Below, piece after piece: positions 18,126-22,383 of a DNA stretch of 64,000 bases. Location of the stretch: NCBI RefSeq assembly GCF_017483025.1, contig NZ_JAFUMA010000010.1, positions 62,001 to 126,000 of the forward strand, given 5' to 3'. The notes under the pieces were generated by a model. That model was given only the letters and a program-made list of their open reading frames with translations, made no database searches and was not told the origin of the DNA. This DNA comes from Anaerotignum sp. Its GTDB lineage: Bacteria; Bacillota; Clostridia; Lachnospirales; Anaerotignaceae. Each line of letters starts with the position of its first letter. The first letter of the stretch is position 1. A program made the position numbers and the translations under genes.

Positions 18126-19349
18126 ATGAAAAATCTTTTGGTTGCGCAGTCCGGCGGTCCTTCTGCAGCGATCAATGCTACCCTGGTGGGCGTTGTGGAA
18201 AAAGGTCTTGCTGATCAGAATATCGATAAAATTTATGGCGCGAAAAACGGTATTATGGGCATCCTGACGGATAAGCTCATCGAATTGAACGACAAGCTGG
18301 CAGACCCTGAGACCCTGCAGCTTCTTTGCCAGACCCCTTCTTCTGCCTTGGGCTCCTGCCGCATGAAGCTGTCCCATTGGGAAGAAAGCACCTTTGAATA
18401 CGATAAGATCATTAAGGTCTTCCGTAAATATAATATTGGCTATTTCATCTATATCGGCGGCAACGATTCCATGGATACAGTCAAAAAGCTATCCGGCTTT
18501 TGTGAACGCATGCATATCGATGATATCAAGATCATCGGCGCCCCCAAGACCATCGACAATGACCTGATGGAAACAGATCATTGCCCCGGCTTTGGCTCTG
18601 CGGCAAAATATGTGTCCACCACTATGTCTGAAATTTCCTGCGACTGCAATGTATATGCCCAGCCCTCCATCACCATTGTGGAGATTATGGGCAGAGATGC
18701 AGGCTGGCTGACAGCAGCTTCCGCCTTGGGTAGGCTCAATGGCGATACCGCCCCTGATTTAATTTATCTTTGTGAAAGACCCTTCTTTGTAGACCAGTTT
18801 TTGGATGATGTGCGGGCGAAAATGGAAGAAAAACATTCCATCATCATTGCCGTCAGCGAAGGCATCAAAAATGAAGAGGGCGATTATGTGACGGATACTC
18901 TGAAGGATAGGGCAGTCGATGCCTTTGGTCATAAGATTTTAGCGGGTGCGTCCCGTTATCTGGAGGAGATCTTGCGTTTTGAAATCGGCTGTAAGGTAAG
19001 AAGTATCGAGCTGAATGTGATGCAAAGATGCGCTTCCCATGTGGCTTCTGCTTCTGATATCTATGAATCCAGGCTGATTGGCTCCGCAGCGGCAGATTAT
19101 GCCATCAGCGGCGGCACAGGCAAAATGGCCTGCATCAAGAGAACCTCTACAAAGCCTTATCGTTTTGAGATCGACTTCGTGGATATTGATCAGATTGCAA
19201 ATCAGGTGAAAACAGTGCCTGATGAATGGATCAACCCTGCGGGCAACGATGTGACCCAGGAAATGATCGATTATCTGCTTCCCCTGATCCAGGGAGAATT
19301 GCCCTGTACCTACAAAAACGGGGTTCCTGTGCATCTAAGACTCTATTAA
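18126..19349 (+). CDS. pfp: Pyrophosphate-dependent 6-phosphofructokinase
   Basis: Phosphorylates fructose 6-phosphate reversibly, most likely with PPi. In the donor site the sequence reads GGNDSMDT (109-116), with Asp where ATP-PFKs have Gly, and the catalytic loop reads PKTIDNDL with Lys before TIDND. Both changes mark PPi-dependent enzymes. MGRDAGWL follows (fructose 6-phosphate binding). The 407 residues are longer than ATP-PFK (~320), as expected for this clade. ATG follows GGAAGGAAG. Reversibility would let the enzyme work in gluconeogenesis together with the pyruvate carboxylase and GAPDH genes in the window. Confidence 0.93.
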   Translation: MKNLLVAQSGGPSAAINATLVGVVEKGLADQNIDKIYGAKNGIMGILTDKLIELNDKLADPETLQLLCQTPSSALGSCRMKLSHWEESTFEYDKIIKVFRKYNIGYFIYIGGNDSMDTVKKLSGFCERMHIDDIKIIGAPKTIDNDLMETDHCPGFGSAAKYVSTTMSEISCDCNVYAQPSITIVEIMGRDAGWLTAASALGRLNGDTAPDLIYLCERPFFVDQFLDDVRAKMEEKHSIIIAVSEGIKNEEGDYVTDTLKDRAVDAFGHKILAGASRYLEEILRFEIGCKVRSIELNVMQRCASHVASASDIYESRLIGSAAADYAISGGTGKMACIKRTSTKPYRFEIDFVDIDQIANQVKTVPDEWINPAGNDVTQEMIDYLLPLIQGELPCTYKNGVPVHLRLY

Positions 19350-19360
19350 TCTATAAAAAG

Positions 19361-19391
19361 AAAGAGCTATGCAAGTGCATAGCTCTTCTTT
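19361..19391 (+). terminator. Terminator of pfp
   Basis: AAGAGCTATGC (19362-19372), AAGT loop, GCATAGCTCTT (19377-19387), then CTTTAT; the U-tract is weak. Confidence 0.7.
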
Positions 19392-19446: not shown

Positions 19447-19989
19447 ATGCGAAAAGCAATCGTTGTGGCAGCATTAGCCAGCTTTCTGATCTGTCTCTTT
19501 GCGGGATATTACGTTGCCCTTTGGATGGGAGAAAGAGATAAGCAGATTGCCGCAGGGGCAGAAATCAGGGAAGTGATCCGCACACAGAAGCTCATCAACG
19601 CCCAGACGAAAATGATTTATCAGTATTTTTACACCAGCGACCGGGTAACGAAGGAGCAGATCGAGCTTGCCCCTGATTTCCTGCAGGGGCTGGATCTGGA
19701 ACAACTGAAAAGCATTTATAACGGCTGGCAGATCGTTTTCTTTTCTCCTGAAAAGGTCATCCTCCGCTGCTCCATTGAAGGCATGAGCAGCGAAGCCTAT
19801 ATTCTTGGGGAACAGGACGGCTGTCTGGCGGTATTTTATGAGGATGGGAATAAAGCCATCCATTTGAAGGAGAAGACGGAACTGCCCCTTTCCGCTCTGC
19901 CGGAGGGGGAAGCAAGGCAGATACGGGAAGGGCTAAGGGTAACGGGAGAGGAAAACCTGGCGAAGATATTGGCAGATCTGATGAGTTGA
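19447..19989 (+). CDS. BofC C-terminal-domain protein
   Basis: A 180-residue protein with an N-terminal membrane helix or signal anchor (about 5-27), a basic linker, and a C-terminal part (about 110-175) resembling the BofC C-domain: AYILGEQDGCLAVFYED, then TELPLSALPEGEARQIREGL. In Bacillus subtilis, BofC is made in the forespore under sigma-G and exported to the intermembrane space, where it restrains SpoIVB signalling and so the pro-sigma-K checkpoint. Here a sigma-G-like promoter precedes the gene and sigK is 26 kb away. ATG follows AAGAGGTGG. The N-terminal half is unlike classical BofC, so the exact role is uncertain. Confidence 0.75.
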   Translation: MRKAIVVAALASFLICLFAGYYVALWMGERDKQIAAGAEIREVIRTQKLINAQTKMIYQYFYTSDRVTKEQIELAPDFLQGLDLEQLKSIYNGWQIVFFSPEKVILRCSIEGMSSEAYILGEQDGCLAVFYEDGNKAIHLKEKTELPLSALPEGEARQIREGLRVTGEENLAKILADLMS

Positions 19990-20064: not shown

Positions 20065-20093
20065 TGGACTTTTTTTGACCCACATGATATACT
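20065..20093 (+). promoter_or_regulatory. Promoter of candidate small RNA
   Basis: TGGACT (20065-20070), 17 bases, TATACT (20088-20093) preceded by TGA (extended -10). Predicted start near G20100, the first base of the first hairpin. Confidence 0.6.
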
Positions 20094-20099
20094 AACTAC

Positions 20100-20218
20100 G
20101 TGAAAACTCCCCAATATTTTCACTATGTACTATGATTTAAATAGTACCGACCCAATAAGAAATACCTTCTCTTTTGAAGAAGAGCGACCATCGGCAGGTC
20201 GCTCTTCTTCATTTTTTA
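20100..20218 (+). ncRNA. Candidate small regulatory RNA, three hairpins
   Basis: A ~118-base transcript predicted from a promoter to a strong terminator. Hairpin 1 is GTGAAAA/TTTTCAC (20100-20106 with 20117-20123) around the C-rich loop CTCCCCAATA. Hairpin 2 is GTACTAT/ATAGTAC (20127-20133 with 20141-20147). Then comes a pyrimidine-rich single strand, and hairpin 3 is a perfect 14-bp terminator stem (20176-20189 with 20197-20210) followed by ATTTTTTA. No ORF with a ribosome site lies inside. The CUCCCC loop is complementary to Shine-Dalgarno-like GGGGAG, a common feature of trans-acting RNAs in Gram-positives. I cannot match it to a named RNA family. Confidence 0.65.
20176..20218 (+). terminator. 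Strong intrinsic terminator ending the small RNA
   Basis: Perfect 14-bp stem GAAGAAGAGCGACC / GGTCGCTCTTCTTC with a 7-base loop and a T-run. Confidence 0.93.
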
Positions 20219-20251
20219 GGGGTAATTTTTATTTTTTTCTAAAAAATGAAG
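20207..20251. repeat. 13-bp inverted repeat overlapping the terminator
   Basis: CTTCATTTTTTAG (20207-20219) and CTAAAAAATGAAG (20239-20251) are exact inverted repeats. The left arm contains the 3' end of the terminator stem and its U-tract, so the two structures are mutually exclusive. Confidence 0.7.
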
Positions 20252-20265
20252 TAGAATCTAATCGA

Positions 20266-20295
20266 TTGACATAGATAATATTTACCCATTATAAT
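20266..20295 (+). promoter_or_regulatory. Promoter of the GH13 gene
   Basis: TTGACA (20266-20271), 18 bases, TATAAT (20290-20295). Confidence 0.8.
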
Positions 20296-20334: not shown

Positions 20335-22383
20335 ATGCCAGAGCAGATCGCATCCGGCTTCAGCCTGACTGCGGATGATTTCCGCATCCAGTCTATATAC
20401 AGCGACGAAACAAAACAATTCCGCTCTCCCGCAGAGCCTTTGTCAACAGACGAGGTGGAGATTTCTATTCGTGTGGGTAAGGGAACTTTTTCCGCCATTT
20501 TCCTATGCACCGATGAAAGGGAATATCTGATGGAGGAAACGGAGGAAGACGGAATCTTTGAATACTATAAGGTGACTTTGCCCCCTACGGAAAAGAAAAC
20601 GACCTATTACTTCCGCCTCCAGCATGGCGAAGAAGTTGGATATTATACAAAATATGGATATTTTGATGAATTCAAAAATGAAGGGCAATTCCAAATCATC
20701 CGCGATTACCAGACCCCAGATTGGGCGAAGGGCGCGGTTATGTATCAGATCTATCCCGACCGTTTCTGTAACGGCGACCCCTCCAATGATGTGAGAACCA
20801 ACGAGTATGTTTACCTGAACCACCTGGTGGAACAGGTAAAAAAATGGGATGCCCTTCCTGCGGCGACGGATGTGAACCATTTCTATGGCGGCGACCTGCA
20901 GGGCGTCATTAATAAGCTGGATTATTTGGCAGATCTGGGCGTAGAGGTCATCTATTTCAACCCCATTTTTGTTTCCCCCAGTAACCATAAATATGATGCC
21001 CAGGATTATCACCATATAGACCCCCATCTGGGCAAAATCGTCCGCGATGGCGGCAGACTGCTGAACAATTGCGCTACAACCAACATCGGCGCAAGCATAT
21101 ATGCCACAAGAACGACCCGCGAAGAAAACCTGACGGCTTCCGACAAGCTTTTTGCCCAGCTGGTGGAAAAAGCCCATGAAAAGGGCATTCGCGTGCTGGT
21201 GGATGGGGTATTCAACCACTGCGGCGCTTTCCATAAATGGATGGACAGAGAAGGCTTTTATAAAGGCGAAGGAAAAGGCGCGTTCCAGTTCAAGGACAGC
21301 CCCTATCGTGATTATTTCTATTGGAAGGAAGACGGCACCTATGAAGGCTGGTGGGGCTATGAAAACCACCCCAAGCTGAATGAAGAGGGCTGCCAGGAGC
21401 TGAAAAATGAGATCCTGGAAATCGGCAAAAAATGGGTGTCTGCTCCTTTTAACGTGGATGGCTGGCGTCTGGACGTTGCTGCCGACCTGGGCAAGACCTC
21501 CGAATTCAACCATCATTTCTGGGCAGAATTCCGTGATACTATCAAAGAGATTTCCCCCGATAAACTGATTCTGGCGGAGCATTACGGCGATGCCACAAGC
21601 TGGCTACAAGGCGACCAGTGGGATTCCATTATGAATTATGACGCCTTTATGGAGCCTGTTACCTGGTTTCTGACGGGCGTTTCCAAGCACAGCACGGAAA
21701 AACGGGACGATATGTATAACGATGCCGATATTTTCTGGAGAACCATGATCTATCAGATGGGTAAGCTGCCTTCTCAGGCTATTGCAACAGCTATGAATGA
21801 GCTTTCCAACCATGACCATTCCCGCTTCCTGACCAGAACCAACCGTTGTGTCGGTAGACTGGAGACAGACAGCAGCGAAGGGGCGGAAAGAGGCACGGAC
21901 AAGGCAGTTCTTCGCGAAGCTGTTCTCTTGCAGATGACCTGGAACGGCGCACCCACGGTCTATTATGGGGACGAAGCAGGCCTTGCAGGCTGGACAGATC
22001 CCGATAACCGCCGCACCTATCCCTGGGGCAAGGAAGATAAGGAACTGATTGCATTCCATAAGAAATCGATTCATTTAAGAAAAGAAAATCCCGTTTTGAG
22101 ACACGGCTGTCTGAAACATCTGGTTGGAGAATACGGCGTGATCGCTTATGGCCGTTTCGACAAGGATAATAAATTTATTGTCGCACTGAATAATACGGAA
22201 GAGAACAAGAATATTTCTGTTCCCGTATGGCAGATCGGCATGTCGAAGGAAAGTACTCTGGAAAACTGCCTGATGACCAGCTGTGAAGGTTTCTCTGATT
22301 TCCATTTCCGGTATCCTGTGAAAAAGGGCGTGGCGGAATTGAACATGCCTCCCAAGAGCGCAATGGTATTGAAGGAAGTGTGA
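20335..22383 (+). CDS. Glycoside hydrolase family 13 (neopullulanase/cyclomaltodextrinase-type)
   Basis: Intracellular alpha-glucan hydrolase, 682 residues. An N-terminal beta domain (about 10-125, CBM34-like) precedes the catalytic barrel (130-580) and a C-terminal beta domain. All GH13 conserved regions are present: I DGVFNHCG (290-297), II DGWRLDVAAD with nucleophile Asp380, III LILAEHYG with acid/base Glu415, and IV ELSNHDHSR with Asp494. The N-terminal domain and MYQIYPDRFCNGDPSND motif are typical of neopullulanase, cyclomaltodextrinase and maltogenic amylase. There is no signal peptide, so it should act on imported maltodextrins or stored glycogen. ATG follows AAGGTGGTG. Confidence 0.91.
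   Translation: MPEQIASGFSLTADDFRIQSIYSDETKQFRSPAEPLSTDEVEISIRVGKGTFSAIFLCTDEREYLMEETEEDGIFEYYKVTLPPTEKKTTYYFRLQHGEEVGYYTKYGYFDEFKNEGQFQIIRDYQTPDWAKGAVMYQIYPDRFCNGDPSNDVRTNEYVYLNHLVEQVKKWDALPAATDVNHFYGGDLQGVINKLDYLADLGVEVIYFNPIFVSPSNHKYDAQDYHHIDPHLGKIVRDGGRLLNNCATTNIGASIYATRTTREENLTASDKLFAQLVEKAHEKGIRVLVDGVFNHCGAFHKWMDREGFYKGEGKGAFQFKDSPYRDYFYWKEDGTYEGWWGYENHPKLNEEGCQELKNEILEIGKKWVSAPFNVDGWRLDVAADLGKTSEFNHHFWAEFRDTIKEISPDKLILAEHYGDATSWLQGDQWDSIMNYDAFMEPVTWFLTGVSKHSTEKRDDMYNDADIFWRTMIYQMGKLPSQAIATAMNELSNHDHSRFLTRTNRCVGRLETDSSEGAERGTDKAVLREAVLLQMTWNGAPTVYYGDEAGLAGWTDPDNRRTYPWGKEDKELIAFHKKSIHLRKENPVLRHGCLKHLVGEYGVIAYGRFDKDNKFIVALNNTEENKNISVPVWQIGMSKESTLENCLMTSCEGFSDFHFRYPVKKGVAELNMPPKSAMVLKEV

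Follow-up and report, generated by a model that had tools for sequence, protein, structure and literature searches.

RoxS/RsaE, a small RNA of Bacillus and Staphylococcus, possesses several conserved C-rich regions that are able to pair with Shine-Dalgarno sequences, shows no major effect of Hfq and is conserved across genera; RsaE has been described as the only trans-acting small RNA besides 6S RNA that is common to S. aureus and B. subtilis (PMC4409812). IsrR, the iron-sparing small RNA of Staphylococcus, has three C-rich regions, the first of which (CRR1) varies in length between four and seven C residues, and acts without Hfq (PMC9410917). Trans-acting small RNAs that are conserved beyond a single genus are rare in Firmicutes, and for Blautia, Roseburia, Butyrivibrio, Enterocloster and the relatives of Anaerotignum we found almost no literature on small RNAs at all.

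The locus described here lies in a 64,000-nucleotide stretch of the genome of Anaerotignum sp. (the window; all positions refer to it and all features are on its forward strand). We favor, with reasonable rather than high confidence, the view that it encodes a stand-alone small RNA of approximately 117 nt, transcribed from a sigma-A-type promoter, that occurs throughout the Lachnospirales and acts in trans without Hfq by means of C-rich motifs pairing with Shine-Dalgarno regions. The RNA is predicted to extend from position 20100 to 20216 (117 to 118 nt), the end being derived from the terminator. It would start with hairpin 1 (20100-20123), in which GTGAAAA (20100-20106) and TTTTCAC (20117-20123) form 7 bp and the loop CTCCCCAATA, i.e., CUCCCCAAUA (20107-20116), carries the first C-rich motif. 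Hairpin 2 (20127-20147) also comprises 7 bp, GTACTAT (20127-20133) and ATAGTAC (20141-20147), and is variable in sequence, with covarying sides. A pyrimidine-rich linker contains the second C-rich motif, CCCAATAAGAA (CCCCATAAGAA in Lachnospiraceae), at 20151-20161 and a third motif, ATACCTTCTC, at 20162-20171, which resembles the anti-Shine-Dalgarno tail of 16S rRNA and may form a weak AGAA/UUCU hairpin. The intrinsic terminator (20175-20217) consists of a perfect 15-bp stem (20175-20189 and 20197-20211), the loop ATCGGCA and six T residues (20212-20217). Upon rechecking, the preliminary description proved right almost to the base for promoter, predicted start, hairpins and linker; it had also recognized the terminator stem as perfect and counted one base pair too few (14). 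The region from 20065 to 20251 folds with -48.5 kcal/mol compared with -27.7 +/- 3.8 kcal/mol for dinucleotide-shuffled sequences (z = -5.47), and none of 200 shuffles folded as well. The genome contains a single copy of the RNA.

The promoter (20065-20093) is composed of the -35 element TGGACT (20065-20070), a 17-nt spacer with the TG of an extended -10 region (20085-20086) and the -10 element TATACT (20088-20093), such that the predicted start at about 20100 lies 7 nt past the -10 element. By itself, a match of this quality is not significant (10 were found in 5 kb where 7.8 +/- 2.9 are expected), and the case therefore rests on conservation in homologues. Indeed, TAGACA or TGGACA, a 17-nt spacer and TATAAT are present at the same place in the homologues from Anaerotignaceae, and the promoter reads TTTGTGCACACTT...TGnTATAAT in many other families of the order. 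A near-palindromic element, AAGTTTGTGCACACTT, overlaps the -35 region in many families (e.g., at loci L096, L118, L287 and L290). When the promoter element TTTRTGCACACTT was used in a search for a regulon, it was encountered about once per genome, mostly at the small-RNA promoter, and additional sites were near chance level; the element thus marks the promoter of the small RNA rather than a regulon. A Fur box was not recognized on reading the upstream sequences.

A DNA search among 60 relatives retrieved homologues from many Anaerotignaceae genomes, mostly with 71-80% identity. In 19 sequences from this family, promoter, hairpin 1, linker and terminator are arranged in identical order, and the loop AUCGGCA of the terminator is kept within the family. 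Compensatory substitutions in homologues, on which the preliminary description had staked its case in advance, are present in hairpin 2 and in the terminator: among these 19 sequences, five of the six modelled pairs of hairpin 2 have changed on both sides with pairing retained, as have 11 of the 13 modelled pairs of the terminator, and compensatory changes affect 16 of 26 pairs overall. Pairing is realized in 94.7% of the alignment cells, whereas shuffled alignments give 84.4% and slid controls about 50%. The covariation score is 0.458 as compared with 0.237, and none of 500 shuffles attained it. Hairpin 1 is nearly invariant across the 19 homologues, and within Anaerotignaceae its pairing is therefore neither supported nor contradicted by covariation.

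The wider distribution was examined with two models. R1, built from the 19 Anaerotignaceae copies, matches 43 of 58 genomes of this family and, in the Lachnospirales as a whole, 152 of 295; a class-wide sample yielded no match outside the order at E <= 1e-4. R2, built from Lachnospiraceae copies, matches all 19 Lachnospiraceae genomes in the class-wide sample and 91 of the 295 Lachnospirales genomes; it recovers many R1 loci in families f4, f6, f7, f8, f12, f21 and f22 as well as one locus in Anaerotignaceae. The two models, although derived from different families, thus converge on shared loci, of which a genome usually has one. The sole R2 match outside the order (L282) is weak (34.7 bits), devoid of the C-rich motifs and probably a spurious one. 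Among Lachnospiraceae, carriers include Butyrivibrio, Blautia, Roseburia, Enterocloster, Eisenbergiella, Kineothrix and Hominisplanchenecus. In this family, the RNA begins with GUAA(A...)CCCC(C)AAUACAUUA, continues with a hairpin of the type UAUAG...CUAUA, for which compensatory variants occur (UAUAGCC/GGCUAUA in L154, UACCG/CGGUA in L117), and ends with ACCCCAUAAGAA...AUACCUUCUC and the terminator. The copy number is almost always one per genome, an exception being genus g84 with two dispersed copies. At locus L138 (3844-4135), two RNA copies are arranged in tandem at a distance of about 260 nt, and each of them has a promoter. A 45.5-kb viral contig starts with this RNA (L292, 1-524), followed by phage-like genes, which suggests that a prophage has integrated immediately downstream of the RNA, with the 3' flank of the RNA as a possible attachment site. 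Taken across homologues, the promoter, the three motifs and the terminator are kept in the same order, in line with the earlier proposal of a non-coding RNA gene equipped with its own promoter and terminator.

The three motifs, CCCCAAUA, CCCMAUAARAA and AUACCUUCUC, are nearly fixed across the order, and the stems vary freely. In 104 sequences, the mean predicted probability of being unpaired is 0.96 for motif 1, 0.88 for the first four bases of motif 2 and 0.57 for motif 3, which is thus partly paired in the fold. Since the 5' domain contains few G residues, internal pairing partners for the C residues are scarce. In Lachnospiraceae, the first C-run ranges from five to ten residues. In family f12 (L072 and L074), an enlarged loop of hairpin 2 holds an additional C-rich stretch (UUCCCCAAUA or AUCCCCCAAUC), a possible fourth pairing site.

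Judging from these features, the RNA probably acts by binding to ribosome-binding sites on the mRNAs of other genes. Motif CCCCAAUA, exposed in a loop or in a 5' tail, and the linker motifs CCCMAUAARAA and AUACCUUCUC would pair with the G-rich Shine-Dalgarno regions of several mRNAs, and this pairing would block translation or alter mRNA decay. Protection of the RNA ends would fall to the 5' hairpin and the terminator. For the C-rich loop in particular, the pairing with Shine-Dalgarno sequences proposed in the preliminary description is plausible. Action in trans would have to proceed without Hfq. Searches for Hfq (PF17209), for which Escherichia coli and B. subtilis served as positive controls, did not detect the protein in any of 36 Anaerotignaceae (including the genome studied here), 19 Lachnospiraceae, five f12 and two f17 genomes, and the RNA can therefore not depend on Hfq in its main host families; an Hfq-dependent small RNA calls for a host that encodes Hfq, and in Anaerotignaceae and Lachnospiraceae no such gene was found. 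By contrast, all four f22 genomes searched and one of two f5 genomes do encode Hfq, a pattern pointing to loss within the Lachnospirales.

Candidate targets were sought with exact seeds. Neither the scan for ATTGGGGAG...ATG in 15 Anaerotignaceae genomes nor that for GTATTGGGG...ATG in 19 Lachnospiraceae genomes revealed an orthologous target that recurs beyond one genus, and the similarity of the seeds to a Shine-Dalgarno pattern is sufficient to account for the excess of hits over a control with reversed patterns. This outcome keeps alive a second explanation, namely that the repeated single-stranded CCCCAAUA and CCCCAUAA elements titrate an RNA-binding protein, in the way in which CsrB-type RNAs titrate CsrA. 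Two or three similar C-rich motifs per molecule, with a further copy in the loop of the f12 representatives, their extreme conservation and their lack of internal partners would all suit such a decoy. To our knowledge, however, no binding protein for these elements has been described, and a C-run that varies between five and ten residues is better suited to pairing with G-runs than to a fixed protein site. Moreover, C-rich RNAs pairing with Shine-Dalgarno sequences are an established kind in Firmicutes (PMC4409812, PMC9410917). We therefore consider titration of a protein unlikely, albeit worth keeping in mind. Equally speculative is a reading in which a core, Hfq-free RNA of the Lachnospirales, with conserved CCCCAAUA and CCCCAUAA repeats that titrate a novel C-rich-binding RNA chaperone or are delivered by it, would occupy the center of a network of post-transcriptional control in commensals that dominate the human gut; we would not expect this to hold.

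The genetic environment bears on a third explanation. The gene that is kept next to the RNA across the order encodes a GH13 glycosidase resembling maltodextrin glucosidase or cyclomaltodextrinase. In the window, it is located directly downstream and outside the RNA (20335-22383). Of 108 Lachnospiraceae loci, 81 have it within 1 kb downstream in the same orientation, and most of the Anaerotignaceae have it as well. Being conserved, this linkage leaves room for a role in cis, and the RNA could be the leader of the GH13 gene, an attenuator at whose terminator transcripts end unless a signal permits read-through. In about nine loci, the GH13 start is indeed less than 40 nt away from the terminator, which leaves little room for a promoter, and read-through may supply GH13 there. 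However, the gap between terminator and GH13 has a median length of 104 nt and usually contains a promoter-like site, which in the window is a separate promoter matching the consensus in 12 of 12 positions (TTGACA-18-TATAAT, 20266-20295) and probably belongs to the GH13 gene. A leader should have the gene that it regulates behind it, in the same orientation, at every locus, whereas the RNA persists beside unrelated genes, or beside convergent genes on the opposite strand, where GH13 is absent; this argues for a stand-alone gene rather than an obligate leader. Furthermore, the consensus folds did not reveal any conserved alternative pairing that would break the terminator, and in complementarity to the RNA the start regions of GH13 genes do not surpass those of other genes (duplex energies, p = 0.22). 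An attenuator of GH13 expression consequently appears quite improbable to us.

The preliminary description had pointed to the upstream neighbor, a BofC-domain sporulation gene. The product of this gene (19447-19989), which also lies outside the RNA, matches the BofC_C domain marginally (21.1 bits at a cut-off of 21), and the gene accompanies the RNA only in Anaerotignaceae and f12. The interpretation as a regulatory RNA is thus retained as far as a conserved non-coding gene is concerned, and the bofC-like neighbor offers no supported hint to function. Further upstream, between the bofC-like gene and a phosphofructokinase gene, a hairpin with T-rich tails on both strands (19361-19388) looks like a bidirectional terminator. 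The phosphofructokinase itself (18126-19349) fits the diphosphate-dependent subfamily NF010675 (508 bits, cut-off 273).

Two further explanations can be set aside quickly. Translation of the 5' region would give V-K-T-P-Q-Y in the RNA of Anaerotignaceae and in part of the Lachnospiraceae variants, but the length of the C-run changes in steps that are not multiples of three, so that no reading frame is conserved; together with a predicted start that leaves no room for a Shine-Dalgarno sequence and a freely varying hairpin 2, this largely refutes a peptide-coding or dual-function RNA, to which we attach next to no credence. Nor do we give any real weight to a mere terminator of the bofC-like gene combined with a chance promoter: the interval between bofC and the RNA in the window did not yield another terminator, and bofC transcripts may therefore also end at the RNA terminator, but conservation is far stronger in the promoter and in the 70 nt that precede the terminator than in the terminator, even where no bofC-like gene was detected.

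The small RNA acting on ribosome-binding sites in trans thus remains our preferred reading, and it can be set against what has been described elsewhere. No Rfam family reached its gathering score in the window, nor did any small-RNA family at 20 homologous loci, where only tRNAs and a c-di-GMP riboswitch were found elsewhere in the loci; the matches obtained with permissive settings were of a terminator-like, chance nature. RoxS/RsaE was absent from the Rfam matches up to E = 10, and LhrC (RF00616) attained 14.5 bits (E = 9) compared with a gathering score of 110. We found no report of this RNA in the literature, in which subscription journals were thinly covered, such that a single member may have been listed before; the main text of comparative surveys of non-coding RNAs did not mention the Lachnospiraceae genera looked for. 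A non-coding transcription unit has been reported near cphy2658, a glycoside hydrolase gene of Clostridium phytofermentans (PMC5171806). This unit is similar in that it is non-coding, belongs to a species of Lachnospiraceae and neighbors a gene for a glycoside hydrolase, and differs in its location downstream of the hydrolase gene; it is a candidate only for being identical with the RNA described here. The libraries behind the transcription start sites of that study left out fragments shorter than 200 bp.

The RNA is present in all Lachnospiraceae genomes of the class-wide sample as well as in further families of the order, has no entry in Rfam and resides mostly in Hfq-less lineages. It thereby opens post-transcriptional control to testing in Blautia, Roseburia, Butyrivibrio, Enterocloster and the relatives of Anaerotignum. 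Its features are those of the C-rich small RNAs: a stand-alone gene with its own promoter and intrinsic terminator, and several conserved single-stranded C-rich regions (clearly so for motifs 1 and 2, partly for motif 3). LhrC of Listeria, a small RNA in which loops and single-stranded segments bear several C-rich sites, resembles it in this respect, with a score far below that required for membership. RoxS/RsaE is of similar size and has its own terminator; it shares the C-rich regions and the conservation across genera, and it differs in its motifs and hairpins and in the bacterial order in which it occurs. With IsrR, the RNA has in common a first C-run of variable length, five to ten residues in Lachnospiraceae compared with four to seven in CRR1, and no homology is indicated. 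The three motifs can be mutated singly, an approach already taken with IsrR. On the basis of these comparisons, the best reading is that the RNA represents a new family within a known kind, the C-rich trans-acting small RNAs, similar to RoxS/RsaE and IsrR in anatomy and, as far as tested, not homologous to them.
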